DNA from: Utricularia gibba
Lineage: Eukaryota; Streptophyta; Magnoliopsida; Lamiales; Lentibulariaceae
DNA: 64,000 nt
NCBI GenBank assembly: GCA_002189035.1
Contig: NEEC01000009.1
Span: 2,852,001 to 2,916,000, forward strand
Direction: 5' to 3'
The position numbers were made by a program, and so were the translations under genes. The notes under the pieces were generated by a model. It was not told the origin of the DNA. It was given only the letters and a program-made list of their open reading frames with translations, and made no database searches. Below, piece by piece: positions 28,718 through 36,523 of this stretch. Position 1 is the stretch's first letter. Every line of letters begins with the position of its first letter.

Positions 28718-31185
28718 TCACATGTAAGGACTGCTCTCGACGTAATGAAACAGTTCCGAAGCAGCATTTACAGTGGTACCAACGAACACTTCCCAGAACC
28801 AGAGATCCAAAGCAAGGACTGAAGAGAAAATCAGCAGTGCAAGAGTTTGGTACCTGTTCAAGGGCCACCCACTGACCTCGGCTAACTTCTTCAGCAACGG
28901 CAAAGACTCGCTACTCAGGTTCTTCTTCCTGATGGCCCATGCTGTTATCCACTGCACATCGGAAGGGACGAGGTCAAATTCTGCCTGCAGGCGGCGCCCC
29001 AGGTCCGGCATATGCCCACCTCCGTATAGGATGGCAATCTTATTGCTTCCTCTGCTTACTGCTTGATGTAAAGCTTTGGTTGCAGCTTTGTTTCTCTCGC
29101 CAATGATAACAGACTTCTCTTCTATATCAGCTGTCACCTGAGTGAACCTGAACATGGCATCCACCAAGTTTTTTTTGGCATCATTCAGTAGAGGGACACG
29201 AGCATATATAGTAGAGACTCAGATCATTAATGAAATAAACAGTTTTCCACATGAACGAAGAGAAGAGCATTCGATTACTTACTCGGACGTCAGCCTCTTT
29301 GCGAGAAAAACTTTCATTGCAGCACCAAAATCAAGTCGTGACAGTGCTTCTAATTCGGGATACTCTACTTGGTTTCCTAGGTCAGTGCAAACACTGCTGA
29401 TTAGGAAAAGGCCGAGGAGAGGCATTGGAATGATACGGGAAGCCCACAAGAGTTTAGATCTCAAAGGGTCGAGATCTTCTGGGATAGGGACAGCCTGCAC
29501 TACAGCCTTTGTGGATCTAATTGTCATATCCTTTGCAAATGTGAAGAGGTCCTCTCCTTTTTCAAGCTGAAAAGAGATAAAGTACCAAGAAACAAACAAG
29601 GGAATGATGAAAGATAACATCTTAGCAATAACAGCTTTTACCTTCTTAATTCAATATAGAAAAGGAAAAATTAAACCAACAACTACAAAACAACGCATCA
29701 GCCCCGGACAATATGCATGATCCAAGAAAAGATGAGAGATTTTTAAGAAAGCAAATGAGAAAATACGCAAATATTGTTCTTTTCCTTGGATGCAAATTCT
29801 GGATAAAGTGCATGCAGAATCTTTTAGCATGCCATTCTTTTTTTACGAAGAGCAAGTAAAAGGGTCACAGAATTCAATAAAAATCTGATTTTTCCAATTG
29901 CTGAAAAGAGCTAGATAATTGTCAAAATCACATTTAAAACTGACGCATGCATACATCTATATCAGGTGTTGGATAGATATCTAAGCCCCAACCCCAAGGA
30001 GGTTTTAAAAGAAGACCACTATCAATCACTTTCATTTCTGATGCCATTAGTTTCTCTGATCATCTTTGTTGTCCATTATCTACATTAGAAAGAGTACGTA
30101 GGAATATAAACTAATGCTATGCAGCAGTACCTGAAGCATTTTGAATGTTTCAAAGTCAAGATCTGCATGATACCAATTTTCAGCATCATAGTCAAGGCAA
30201 TCTAACTGAAAGTCAAGCACTAGCAACTTTGCCATCTGCCTCTGAATGCATCCAAGAATATTAAATCCACGAGACTGTTGACGCACAATTTTTTTCCCAG
30301 CAGCTGGATTTCGTCTACTTTCTAAACTTTCTCTGCTAGTCACCATTTCATAAAGAACGCAATCATATTGCTCAAGTACACTTTGCAGGGTGGAGAAATA
30401 CCTGCAAAAACACGTTGCTTAATAGATCTATAAGATGAGAAGTTGCAGGCAAATGATAAGGATCCGTCCATTACTAATACAAAGTTGCGTTTCTCGACAT
30501 TCTATTATCAATGAATGATAACTTCAGAGAGGTTGGCCATGTCATGAAAATGAGAAGAGAAAGGAGACATAGGATGCGAAAATATCTTGCATATTTCACG
30601 GAGAAGACAGATCAAAAAATGTCAAAAGCTATGACTATTATGAATACCACCAAAAAAACGTAGACATAAAAATCACGCAGCATGAAAATCAACAATAAAG
30701 AAAACTTGACCTTAATAGATTTTATCAATTATAAATAAACGAACGGATGATAAAGGCTTACTCTTTGTCAGCAATGTGGATAGTTGACACCAAGTCCACC
30801 TACACAAGCAGGAAAACGTATTGGTAAACCAACGCAACGACGCTACCAAGAGACCCAAAAAAATCAGTATATTTATACGACGGAAATTGAAAAATGACAA
30901 GGTTACCTGAAGGAAGGGTTGGAAAAGGGACCACGGGAACTTCTTGCGGTAACTAACAACAGCAGTCTGCAACTGAGCATGCGAATCCTTCTTATACCTC
31001 ATGAAATCAGCTATGGAATTGTTCTTTGAGAATTCCTCCACCGAGCCATCGCCAATTTTGCAGAAGATCTTGTATCTAGGAAGCCCACATCTCGCTGTTC
31101 TGGAGGAACGACACGATTGGGATGTGGCAACGGAAAATGAGAAGGCTAATCTTGGGTCTGTTATCGGCAGGCAACTATGAACCAT
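28718..31185 (-). CDS. TraB/PrgY-domain family protein with LeuD-like plastid transit peptide
   Basis: Plant TraB proteins are related to bacterial pheromone-shutdown proteins; their biochemical role is poorly defined. Exons right to left: 30907-31185, 30762-30799, 30131-30401, 29283-29566, 28718-29147, giving about 433 residues. The TraB signature is split over exons: STIHIADKEYFSTLQSVLEQ, YDCVLYEMV, and NKIAILYGGGHMPDLGRRLQ. Two hydrophobic C-terminal segments are seen: IPMPLLGLFLISSV (exon 4) and LALLIFSSVLALDLWFWEVF (near the end), suggesting membrane anchoring. The first 32 residues (MVHSCLPITDPRLAFSFSVA...) match the transit peptide of the LeuD gene next door (18 of 32 identical), and the DNA similarity extends into the 5' UTR. 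Organelle (plastid) targeting is therefore inferred. Confidence 0.85.
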
Positions 31186-31270
31186 TCCTCCGACTCTAAG
31201 ATTGACAGGCAAGTCTCCGGCGGAGGAAACGGCTCAGAGAAACCGAATTACGTCTCCGGTTGCGTACGAA
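31085..31270 (-). repeat. Duplicated 5' region (copy in TraB gene) of the LeuD-type gene
   Basis: This stretch aligns with 32985-33180 in the same orientation, at roughly three-quarters identity by eye, with small gaps. It covers the first 32 codons and part of the 5' UTR; the shared GCGTACGAA word lies at the distal end of both. Homology fades after residue 32 in the protein. Confidence 0.82.
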
Positions 31271-32220
31271 GGTACGAAAGAAGAAGACACCGACACCGGT
31301 GGTCGATAAGTTCCCAAAAATCAAGGATTTCTGCACCTTTATATCGTCCTGTCGGAAAACCCGACGGGTGAACCACACGAGTTGAACCGTTTCCGGTTCG
31401 AGCCGACTCGGACCTGTATATTACGTAATCAAACCCGCCACCAAATCCATGTATTATGACATTCAAACACATTATCAGATTTCAAGTTTGAAATTACGAG
31501 AGCATTTGGTTCACGGTTTCAGATCACCCAACTCTAAGAACAAGGAAGGTCTCAGCTTTTTGCATGGAGAAGTATCCTGGGGAGCTTTTGAACCCGGGGC
31601 TTCAGAGCAACCTACAAAATGTAACTGGAATTCAGCTGATGGGAGACAAACTTAACGCATATATGCCACAACTCTTCGGAACCAAGACAATGTCAAGCAT
31701 GGAAGCCAGGCATTGAAAAAAGACCAAAACAGATTTTGGATGATAAGGGGATGATGAACTGATGAAAAACCCTGATATAGACTCTCTCTGTAACGAGCCC
31801 GCTCTGCGTGCATTACATAGAGCAGTTTTATAGGATTTTGGGGGGGGGGGGTGAAGTTGTACGAGAACATCTCTTGAAGGTGGTAAAAAGAATAATTTGT
31901 TGCGTGCAGTCAATTGTCATCCGAAGAGACAGAATTCATTGTTCACCGGAAAAGGGCATTAGACATCATTTTCGCTCAAGACAATATGTATTCCCATGTA
32001 AAACCGTGAGCAAGGATTTGAACTTCAGCTCATACGCAGAATTACATTCAAACAAAGCAAATGATGGCAAAAGGAACATGAACTATGCATGTCAGAGAAA
32101 TCACATCCAGCAGACACAAAGTTGTAACTTTCCAAGCATTCAGTAAGATTCATCAACAAAATAAAACAGTGCACAACCGTGGATTTTGGAACCAAGGAGA
32201 AGCTTGTTTGCTTACCTTGT
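31186..32220. other. Intergenic between LeuD 3' end and TraB start
   Basis: About 1 kb. 31186-31270 belongs to the duplicated leader. Bases 31840-31851 are a run of 12 G. 31860-32220 is probably LeuD 3' UTR. No extra gene is recognised; the ORFs present are short and without known motifs. Confidence 0.45.
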
Positions 32221-33087
32221 CTACACATCCCGGGATGGGATCATCCCTGTTTTTCTTGCATAGGCGAAAATTCCACCAGCCTCAATGACTGGCCCAGCAT
32301 CACCAATTGGCTTCAAGTTGTACTCTTTTCCAGAAGTATGGTTTATCAGCTTACTGTGATCTCCAGTTAGCTCAATAGTAACGACATCCCCAGTCTTACA
32401 TTCCTCGCATAACCTGCCTTCAGACTCCAATGGATAAATCTCTCCCGTCGCCACCGAATTCCTGAAGAAAATTCTTGCGTATGACTCCGCCACCACTGCT
32501 GTCACTCCGGCGGCACCCAATGCCACCGGAGCATGCTCGCGAGATGAGCCACAGCCGAAGTTATCGCCTGCGATCACAATTTTATATCTCGTTTTCATGG
32601 CCCCCGGTTCTATGAACCGTGTTTCATATGAAGAGGGCAATCCGATTAGGGCATAAGACCCGAGCTTTTCGTACTCATCGGGCTTCGAAGGGACGAGCGT
32701 AAGGTACTCGGCAGGGATAATTTGATCCGTGTCGATGTTATCACCAACAATGTAGCATTCGCCGTGGAATGTAGTGGAGACATCAGCAGCAGCACCAGCG
32801 GCGGCGCGGGGAATGGATGCTGGGGAATGACTGTCATACGTGAGAGGCCTTGAGGAATGAAACGAAAAGATGGAAGGTGTGCTGGAAAACTTGAAGCCGG
32901 AGCAAACAGCTGAGAGAGACGGAAAATTAGGTCTCTCAGCGGAATAATATCCGCCGAAACCAGCAATGTAGCTGCATCCTGAGATCGCATAGCTCGATGT
33001 TTTGGAGCATCGATACGATTGACATGAGGCCGCGGGAAAAGAGAAGGATAATCTTGCGTCGGTTACCGGCAAACAACCATGAGCCAT
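32221..33087 (-). CDS. LEUD1: 3-isopropylmalate dehydratase small subunit (plastid LeuD)
   Basis: Small subunit of isopropylmalate isomerase, which acts in plastid leucine synthesis (and Met-derived glucosinolate chain elongation in Brassicales). Single exon of 288 codons starting MAHGCLPVTDARLSFSFPAA; an upstream in-frame ORF to 33315 is taken as 5' UTR. Residues 1 to about 90 form a Ser-rich transit peptide. The aconitase swivel domain follows: GECYIVGDNIDTDQIIPAEY, GDNFGCGSSREHAPVALGAA, ARIFFRNSVATGEIYPLE, and the end EAGGIFAYARKTGMIPSRDV. Lack of introns agrees with plant LeuD genes. The length is slightly above the usual 250 residues because of the long transit peptide. Its 5' end is duplicated into the TraB gene just downstream. 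Confidence 0.96.
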   Translation of the reverse strand: MAHGCLPVTDARLSFSFPAASCQSYRCSKTSSYAISGCSYIAGFGGYYSAERPNFPSLSAVCSGFKFSSTPSIFSFHSSRPLTYDSHSPASIPRAAAGAAADVSTTFHGECYIVGDNIDTDQIIPAEYLTLVPSKPDEYEKLGSYALIGLPSSYETRFIEPGAMKTRYKIVIAGDNFGCGSSREHAPVALGAAGVTAVVAESYARIFFRNSVATGEIYPLESEGRLCEECKTGDVVTIELTGDHSKLINHTSGKEYNLKPIGDAGPVIEAGGIFAYARKTGMIPSRDV

Positions 33088-33180
33088 TGCTCCCACTCCG
33101 CTTTCGACAAGAAGTCTCCGGCGAATGAACGCGGCCGAGACCGAGAGAAGGGGGGAATTAGGTTTCCCAGTAGCGTACGA
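32985..33180 (-). repeat. 5' region of LeuD gene that is duplicated in the TraB gene
   Basis: Partner of 31085-31270. It contains the first codons (transit peptide) and leader. LeuD residues HGCLP-TD-RL-FSF are shared with the TraB N-terminus. Confidence 0.82.
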
Positions 33181-34324
33181 ATAGAAGACAGAAGTCCGGA
33201 CGGCCGCATCAGCGGTGGTGCTGTAACAAAGGGCCAAGGATGTCGGCCCGTGAATGGCCCAGCCCGACTCGGGCCGCCATATGTAACACTGCCATTTTTT
33301 TATTGGACACTGCAATTTATTTTTTTTATTCGTTTATAAAAATTTCTAAATTAGTAAATCAACCAATAATTAAAAAATCATAATTGAATTGGTTAGAAAT
33401 GAATTCTAAATAATAGAGTGTCTAAGAAAAAAAGAATATAAAATCATAAATCTTATAATGATATTTCACATTGATTAGAAACGTGATAAGTAATATACTT
33501 AAATAGAATGAGTTCTATTAATCTTATATAAGGTTTTTTTAAAAAAAAAGATAACATAAAAATGTGACAATTGAATGTTTAAAGTGGACAATATGTTATA
33601 AGTAGAGAATAAGTCGTTACATATTGTTTCAAAATGATGATACAATTGATAAATTTTGGGGATTTTTTTATGAAATTTCTCATAAAAAAATATATTAAAT
33701 TTAAATAATAGTGATTAAATGATTCTAAATCCTAAATGATTCATGAGAACTATTTTATGAAAAAAAAATGAAATTGTTTCCGAGTTTCAAGCCTGGTGCA
33801 TGTGAAGACGATAAAGAGGGAGCATGGAGATTCAGATACGGTGTTCTTTCGCAATTTTTTTTTTTTTTTTTTGAATGGTACGGGCGCAAGTGGTGATAAA
33901 TAAATATGACGAGGAGGAAGCTGGATACCCGGCATGATTCATCGAACGGTGAACGCATTCAAAGTACTAGTGTTTTAGGCCATAATGAACGTGTATCAGA
34001 ATCTGCGACACCTCAACAAATGGGTGTGCAACTGGTTGCCTGCCTTATGATTTCCATTTAATACATCCAAGTTGGATTCCTGACTAGTTTATATAAGCGA
34101 CTAGTGTGCAAAACCAGGTCTGAAGCACCCGGATTTGTTATTCCTCCTGCTTCTTTTCCTTGCCTTTTCCCTTTTCGTAGATCGGGGTTTTGATGGTTAG
34201 GAGAATTTTGGAGGTGTTTTTGGTGTTTGTTCTTGTTCCAGAATGAAATCTTGATCTGGGTTTTGTTGATATCTTCGAAAGTTTTGTCTTTGTGGCTTTA
34301 CCTCCGAGGTTCTCGTAACCAGTC
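33088..34324. other. Divergent intergenic region between LeuD and EBF genes
   Basis: About 1.2 kb. 33290-33780 is very AT-rich, with poly-A/T runs. 33860-33872 is a T run. From 34090 the EBF core promoter and long 5' UTR follow. No coding sequence is seen. Confidence 0.45.
34090..34097 (+). promoter_or_regulatory. Probable TATA box of EBF gene
   Basis: TATATAAG lies 228 bp before the EBF ATG. This fits a transcription start near 34120-34130 and a 5' UTR of about 200 bp. Confidence 0.5.
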
Positions 34325-36523
34325 ATGCCCGGCCTGGTGAACAACGGTGAGTTATTTTTTTCATTATTTCTCCTTGGGGGGTTGTTTTATGGCATCTCAG
34401 AATACCGTCGGTGAAGTCGAGTAATTTGTGTTGTGATGCTTTATCATGATGTTGATATCTTGTTTTGGGGAGTAGATGCGGGAGGTAAGTCGTAATAACC
34501 TTAGCTGATACTTTTCGTTGAGAACTGGGAATTGATTCTTGTGTTTGAGTGTTTGATCAGTGAAAGGTTTATCATGAAGTTCCTGGACTCATATTTTGCT
34601 GCCTTAGCTGTTGAAAGTAATTTATATCATGGATATTGTTTGCATTCTATAGGTTCTGGGATTGTGTTCGCCATTGGCTCCCACATTGAGGTCTTCAGTC
34701 CATCAAGAAAGTACTCCCGCATCAGCGGTCCTTTGACCTTCAGTAGAGAAGCTGCCAATACAAGGCCTTCAATTGATCTGCTCCCTGATGAGTGCATATT
34801 CGAGATCTTGAGACGATTGCCTAGTGGCCACGAAAGAAGCATATCTGCTTGTGTTTCGAAGCGTTGGCTGACAATCTTGAGCAGCATTCGTATTTCAGAG
34901 TATAGCTGGAGCAAGAATTCTGAGGGACACATGATCAACTTCGATGAAATTGTAAGTAATGAAGAAGTTGATGCTGAATGTGATGAGTGGCTTTCTAGGA
35001 GTGTGGAAAGTAGAAAAGCAGCAGATTTGCGGCTTGCTGCCATTGCGATTGGCACTTCAGCTCGTGGAGGTCTTGGAAAGCTCTCAATTCAAGGCAGTAA
35101 CTCGTTTATCGGTGTTTCAGACAGCGGTTTGGCAGCCATTGCTCGAGGCTGCCCATCTCTCAAAGATTTATCCTTATGGTGTCTACCCTCCATCAGTGAT
35201 GAAGGTCTCCTTGAAATAGCTCGAGAGTGCCATTCATTGGAAAAGCTCGACCTTTGCCTACTGCGTTCCATTTCAGACAGGAGTTTAGCAGTAATAGCCA
35301 AGAACTGTCAAAGCTTGAATGCATTGAGCATAGATTCATGCCCCAGAATTGGTGACAACACTCTACGTGCAGTTGCAAAGTTCTGCTCCAATCTGAAGTC
35401 CATTACTATCTTAGACTGTCCTCTTATTGGGGATTGTGGGATTTCAAATCTCCTGTCTTCACCTACTTGTGCCTTGACTCATGTGAAATTCCAAGCTCTA
35501 AATTTCTCCGATTACTCAGTTGCTGTGATAGGTTGCTACGGGAAGGCAATCACTAACCTCGTTTTATCCCATCTTCCCAATGTGAGGCAGAGAAGCTTGT
35601 GGGCTATGGCGAAAGCTAAAGGTCTGCAGTCCCTCACTTCCTTGACAGTGGCAGCATGCGGCGGCATGGGTGATTTGAGCCTTGAAGCTGTAGGAAGGGA
35701 CATTCCAAACCTGAAACACTTGACTATCCGCATGAACTGCTTCGTATCAGACAAGGGGCTTGTCTGCTTTCTGAAAGATGCTAATTCTCTTGAGTCGTTG
35801 CACCTGGAGGAATGTGATATGATCACTGAAACAGGCGTTTTTATGGTGCTTTCCGGCGCACTTTCAAAACTGAAGTCCTTAACACTGATCAAATGCATGG
35901 GGATTAAGGATGGAACATCCACAGAGCTCTCCTTTGTTTCTCCATCCAGATCTCTTCGACATCTTTCCATCCGAAACTGCCCTGGGATCGGAAACAGAAC
36001 CATGAGCATCATTGGGAAGCTGTGCCCGAAGCTCCACCATTTAGTTCTCAATGGACTTTGCAGGATCACAGATGATGGCCTGTTTCCACTACTGCAGAAA
36101 TGTGAAGATGGGCTTTCCAAGGTTTCTCTCAGCAACTGCTCCAGCTTGAGCGATGAAGTGGTGTTGTTCTTGTCAAGGCATCACAGCAAAACACTCAAGC
36201 AGCTAAACCTCTACGGTTGTTGCAAGATCACAGATACAAGTTTGTCTGCAGTTGCTGAGAAATGTCCCTCCCTGAACGACCTCGACCTGTCCAAATGCTC
36301 CATCACAGATACCGGCCTGGCCGCCTTGTCCAATGGGGTGCAGCTCAACTTGCAGGTTCTTTCCCTGTCTGGGTGCGCAATGATCTCCAGTAAGAGCCTG
36401 GCAGCTCTAGAGAAGCTTGGGAAGACTCTGGTAGCCTTGAATCTCCAGAAGTGCAGTTCCATGAGCACAGCCTCGATAGAACTTCTCTCTGAGAGATTAT
36501 GGATGTGTGATCTGCTGTACTAA
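34325..36523 (+). CDS. EBF1: EIN3-binding F-box protein (EBF1/2 type), SCF ubiquitin ligase subunit
   Basis: EBF proteins direct EIN3/EIL1 transcription factors to SCF-mediated degradation and so restrain ethylene signalling in the nucleus. Two exons: 34325-34346 (MPGLVNNG) and 34653-36523, giving 630 residues. The phase-1 intron at this place and the tiny first exon are typical of EBF genes, and this joint gives GSGIVFAIGSHIEVFSPSRK. The long ORF that begins upstream at 34532 is intron read-through. The F-box is SIDLLPDECIFEILRRLPSG ... VSKRWLTILSSI (about residues 55-100). About 18 leucine-rich repeats follow, e.g. GLGKLSIQGSNS, LEKLDLCLLRSISDRSLAVI, RHLSIRNCPGIGNRTMSIIG and LNLYGCCKITDTSLSAVAEK, ending ERLWMCDLLY. 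EBF1 versus EBF2 cannot be decided here. Confidence 0.95.

Follow-up and report, generated by a model that had tools for sequence, protein, structure and literature searches.

Can a plant gene acquire its N-terminal presequence from the gene next to it? The question is raised by two neighbouring genes in a 64-kb stretch of Utricularia gibba DNA (contig NEEC01000009.1, positions 2,852,001 to 2,916,000; hereafter the window), within whose coordinates all positions are given. One gene encodes LeuD, the small subunit of isopropylmalate isomerase, and the other a TraB-type protein. Both lie on the minus strand, head to tail, with LeuD upstream and TraB downstream, and both begin with the same segment, composed of a leader and 31 codons. 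We conclude from sequence comparison that the two 5' ends derive from one segment, probably by way of a local duplication.

In a local alignment, the TraB and LeuD copies of the segment (Table 1) share 153 of 189 aligned bases (about 81%), with 36 mismatches and 20 gap bases. The alignment score of 122 is far above the maximum of 33 reached among 300 pairs of dinucleotide-preserving shuffles, which rules out chance similarity. BLASTN inside the window recovers the same pair of 5' ends (76.8% over 138 columns, E = 9e-23), and 18 of the 31 N-terminal residues are identical in a gap-free alignment (BLOSUM62 score 98). An earlier interpretation, hereafter the sequence-only reading, had described a similarity of about 180 bp including leader sequence, with 18 identities in 32 residues, between 5' ends lying in the same orientation about 1.9 kb apart. 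Pairwise alignment bears out the similarity, its extension into the leader and the arrangement, the ATG codons at 31185 (TraB) and 33087 (LeuD) being 1,902 bp apart on one strand. The 18 identities hold as well, but across 31 aligned residues, and the shared DNA is longer, about 195-200 bp and perhaps 265-275 bp.

The similarity stops near codon 32 in both genes. On the upstream side, about 70 bp more are probably part of the shared segment: when the extension test is anchored at the core end, none of 200 shuffles matches the score observed out to about 31356 (TraB) and 33267 (LeuD), but when the upstream flanks are aligned locally without an anchor the result is not significant, 123 of 1000 shuffles being equally good. 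Downstream, extension is not significant whether anchored (47 of 200 shuffles) or unanchored (120 of 1000). The Jukes-Cantor distance between the copies is 0.22 over 189 sites; with substitution rates that we take to be 7e-9 to 1.5e-9 per site and year, this corresponds to 16-73 million years, a range too broad for placement on a tree. In the list of open reading frames, that of LeuD continues beyond its ATG as far as 33315 (33087-33315, minus strand), whereas the entry for TraB starts no further upstream than 31212.

The mature proteins belong to unrelated families, as the sequence-only reading had proposed. LeuD carries an aconitase C-terminal domain (PF00694; 66.4 bits, cut-off 22.8) and is homologous to a solved LeuD small subunit (3vba_A, E = 3.8e-25) in an alignment that starts at residue 107. 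About 106 residues thus precede its core, and the shared block makes up the first third of them; solved bacterial LeuD cores do without this N-terminal block. The Arabidopsis homologues, IPMI SSU1-3, are located in plastids according to the available part of PMC7308503. No N-terminal sequence of a plant LeuD was found in the accessible parts of the literature on its transit peptides, including PMC3946710 and PMC7308503.

The TraB gene is a predicted splice model of five exons encoding 433 residues, in which all introns are GT-AG and the frame is kept. The spliced protein has no Pfam match at E <= 1 and falls short of the cut-off for PF01963 (TraB/PrgY/gumN), and PF01963 gave no match either when the assembly was searched with it exon by exon. 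Its assignment depends on a bacterial relative from a Limisphaerales genome, L007, which is related to the window protein with E = 2e-34 in one search and 4.8e-37 in another and which itself exceeds the PF01963 cut-off (28.5 bits against 26.8). Judged through this bridge, the window protein is TraB-like, not a PF01963 member by the curated cut-off. Relatives of its core occur in 38 of 188 genomes of the class to which the Limisphaerales record belongs, at 26-31% identity, and the origin of the plant gene might be traceable. We aligned 12 loci from this 38-genome set together with L007, which is the same as L009, so that 12 distinct proteins were compared (L007, L009-L020). The alignment starts at TraB residue 61, which is also the first query residue, for 10 of the 12 and at residue 93 for the other two. 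With the full-length TraB protein, the core begins at about residue 60 and nothing N-terminal of it aligns convincingly.

Since the bacterial core begins only there, TraB residues 1-59 count as an added presequence, of which residues 1-31 are LeuD-like and the remainder is unmatched. With the TraB core starting near residue 60 and the LeuD core near 107, the shared block therefore lies within the presequence of both proteins: a homologous N-terminus precedes mature proteins of unrelated families, as expected of presequence acquisition. Local duplication is the simplest source of the common 5' ends, in agreement with the sequence-only reading. Serine and threonine account for 32% of TraB residues 1-31, 22% of TraB 1-58 and 27% of LeuD 1-96, against 13% in each core; the same N-terminal stretches contain one, four and three acidic residues, respectively. 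Plastid targeting of TraB is plausible. Two hydrophobic stretches of TraB, at residues 395-413 (exon 5) and 241-259 (exon 4), with a mean hydropathy over 19 residues of 1.8-1.9, suggest membrane association; the first lies beyond the region matched by the bacterial relatives. Scans of viral contigs with the TraB start and with LeuD returned 7 pattern matches each and 0 confirmed relatives.

How the segment is joined to TraB does not fit the capture of a first exon that the sequence-only reading had envisaged. The join falls within a coding exon of either gene, exon 1 of TraB (93 codons in the predicted model) and the only coding exon of LeuD, with no intron at that place, and the block occupies only the first third of the TraB exon, so that exon shuffling or exon capture was rejected. 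Within the block, the 95 aligned coding bases are free of gaps, whereas gaps open 12 times among the 94 aligned leader bases (Fisher P = 1.6e-4). Because the coding part alone is gap-free, the reading frame has probably been kept in both copies. In the upstream DNA, a TATAAA-like box (31343-31338) is present in the TraB copy only, within the less certain upstream extension, with none at the aligned LeuD place. LeuD-like expression of TraB, which the sequence-only reading had entertained, is weakened by this difference and cannot be assumed.

Further copies of the segment were sought in the whole assembly (100.09 Mb, 516 contigs), with translated searches that score only the best candidates. 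LeuD, compared with all six frames at E <= 0.001, matched itself and TraB residues 1-35 (E = 5.8e-4) only; the reciprocal TraB search (E up to 10) returned four matches to its own exons and the LeuD N-terminus (E = 0.0015). A DNA search with the LeuD leader gave only the self match and is insensitive, since it missed the TraB copy as well. No third copy was found in the assembly by DNA or translated search, and no dispersed repeat turned up as a source.

Table 1. Features of the TraB-LeuD region in window coordinates
Feature	Position	Strand	Remarks
TraB copy of shared segment	31091..31286	-	leader of about 100 bp, codons 1-31 and two bases
LeuD copy of shared segment	32993..33194	-	leader, codons 1-31 and two bases; from local alignment
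Probable upstream extension, TraB side	31287..31356	-	supported by the anchored test, not by the unanchored one
Probable upstream extension, LeuD side	33195..33267	-	supported by the anchored test; not significant when unanchored
TraB exon 1 (codons 1-93)	30907..31185	-	residues 1-31 LeuD-like, then an unmatched stretch; bacterial-type core from about 60
TraB exon 2	30762..30799	-	STIHIAD stretch; predicted GT-AG, frame kept
TraB exon 3	30131..30401	-	predicted
TraB exon 4	29283..29566	-	predicted
TraB exon 5	28718..29147	-	predicted; GGGH stretch, hydrophobic C-terminal stretch, stop codon
LeuD (isopropylmalate isomerase small subunit)	32221..33087	-	288 residues; intronless coding part; core starts near residue 107

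Adjoining LeuD on its other side is an F-box/leucine-rich-repeat gene on the plus strand (34766-36520), which we presume to be EBF-like. A relative of this gene is found elsewhere on the contig, at a distance of about 940 kb (C505:1945569-1947276; 62-66% identity), and a further one occurs on a second contig (C414; 43-53%).

We propose that the leader and the first 31 codons were duplicated locally, so that two adjacent, co-oriented and unrelated genes now begin with the same segment. The LeuD gene would first have undergone a tandem duplication; a deletion would then have joined the beginning of the downstream LeuD copy, up to about codon 31, to the 5' part of TraB. TraB would thereby have gained a new presequence at its N-terminus, perhaps with part of a promoter, and would have become a nuclear-encoded protein with a stretch of plastid transit peptide before its old N-terminus. 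On balance we consider this reading as a whole probable, if only modestly so. We favour the direction from LeuD to TraB, which appears fairly likely, because the gene order would then require one tandem duplication and one deletion, and the reverse, if brought about in the same way, would need more.

Several observations weigh against this reading. The direction is unproven, gene order being the argument for it. Comparison of the LeuD gene and protein with the intervening DNA (31100-32220) revealed no trace of a second LeuD body, the best match, the shared segment aside, having E = 1.3 for DNA and 0.26 for protein, though the proposed deletion would have removed such a trace. The Arabidopsis homologues of LeuD, which we take to be about 250 residues long, are some 35 residues shorter than the window protein, as would fit LeuD as the recipient. 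Over the 31 shared codons, dN is 0.21 and dS 0.39, and the bootstrap range of their ratio (0.55) extends from 0.21 to 1.99; 21 differences over 32 codons are distributed over the codon positions as 8, 6 and 7. Amino-acid constraint is thus not clear. Weak constraint of this kind is typical of transit peptides, but also of weakly used leaders. Finally, TRB3 (AT5G52030), the third Arabidopsis member of the TraB family, is mainly cytoplasmic when expressed as an N-terminal RFP fusion, according to the available part of PMC9513094, though such a fusion could hide a transit peptide. That the window TraB is the orthologue of TRB3 is an assumption, and a doubtful one, because the accessible text of the same report describes TRB3 isoforms without a predicted transmembrane domain, whereas the window protein has its hydrophobic stretch at 395-413.

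The opposite direction, in which the segment was native to TraB and was placed before LeuD so as to lengthen an existing transit peptide, seems unlikely to us, although it would accommodate the roughly 106 residues that precede the LeuD core and the excess of about 35 residues over the presumed length of the Arabidopsis small subunits. LeuD residues 55-97, read by eye, could alone form a complete transit peptide, and the TATA-like box of the TraB copy, with no counterpart at that place in LeuD, points the same way. Set against this, the gene order would seem to demand more steps of tandem duplication and deletion, and the TraB core occurs in 12 distinct bacterial relatives without such an N-terminus, though bacterial LeuD cores are without it too. 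It is less probable still that a third source supplied both genes, or that gene conversion homogenised an older duplicate pair, in which case the distance of 0.22 would not date the event. Similarity limited to a patch of 200-270 bp, with flanks devoid of clear similarity, would fit either dispersal or conversion, but neither the DNA search of the assembly, insensitive as it is, nor the translated one yielded a third copy.

Whichever way the segment arose (from LeuD to TraB, in reverse, or by a third source or conversion), it may be functionally idle in TraB, with translation beginning at Met62 or the mRNA starting downstream, so that the LeuD-like codons remain untranslated. Met62, the only other methionine codon of TraB exon 1, sits at the start of the conserved core: skipping exon 1 would lose the core start, but initiation at Met62 would not. 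A dN/dS ratio indistinguishable from 1 is also what an idle segment would give. We nevertheless hold this to be the least probable of these alternatives, as the gap-free 95 coding bases, against 12 openings in 94 leader bases, point to selection on the reading frame.

Acquisition of presequences from existing genes is already known, and the TraB-LeuD pair is a new, local instance of it. Rice rps11 is reported to have received a mitochondrial presequence by duplication of an existing targeting signal (Kadowaki and colleagues 1996); the likeness is a new presequence made from a duplicated one, and the differences are that the target is mitochondrial and the genes are not known to be adjacent. 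In rice rpl6, a transposable element reportedly supplied the 5' untranslated region once the gene had moved to the nucleus; this again is a new 5' end from elsewhere, but, to judge by the title of PMC2631504, one that stems from a transposable element and is limited to the untranslated region. Closer in kind is rpl32 in Malpighiales (Populus, Euphorbia), which, as described in the available part of PMC8018952, carries the transit peptide of Cu-Zn superoxide dismutase: there too, an unrelated protein bears a transit peptide copied from an existing gene for a plastid protein. In that case, according to the same text, a gene of plastid origin was the recipient, exon shuffling is given as the cause of the copy and several families allowed the source to be traced, whereas TraB and LeuD adjoin, their shared segment is joined within an exon and the direction from one to the other is inferred. 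More generally, the accessible part of PMC7086175 reports that targeting signals are gained and lost faster after gene duplication in plants. Among the best-ranked matches of a literature search, whose coverage leaves out most subscription journals, there was no report of a TraB-LeuD leader duplication.

We advance, tentatively, the further possibility that in this lineage a local duplication redirected a TraB-type protein, one with relatives in bacteria, from the cytosol to the plastid, by placing the leader and the initial third of the LeuD presequence before TraB within an exon and without the help of an intron. If true, a transit peptide would have arisen, by a mechanism that can be read, in a gene with no past in the plastid genome. 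Gains of an organelle address often have to be rebuilt from old events whose donor is lost or distant; here the candidate donor and recipient adjoin and are still 81% identical, so that direction, promoter sharing and the minimal length required for targeting are directly testable. TRB3, as characterized in the available part of PMC9513094, resembles the window protein as a plant TraB-type protein outside the TRB1/TRB2 clade and a possible orthologue, and differs in being mainly cytoplasmic, as an N-terminal fusion, and in being described without a transmembrane domain. Through the proposed event, one of the TraB-type proteins of plants would become a candidate for plastid location, in contrast to Arabidopsis TRB3, which as an N-terminal fusion was assigned to the cytoplasm.

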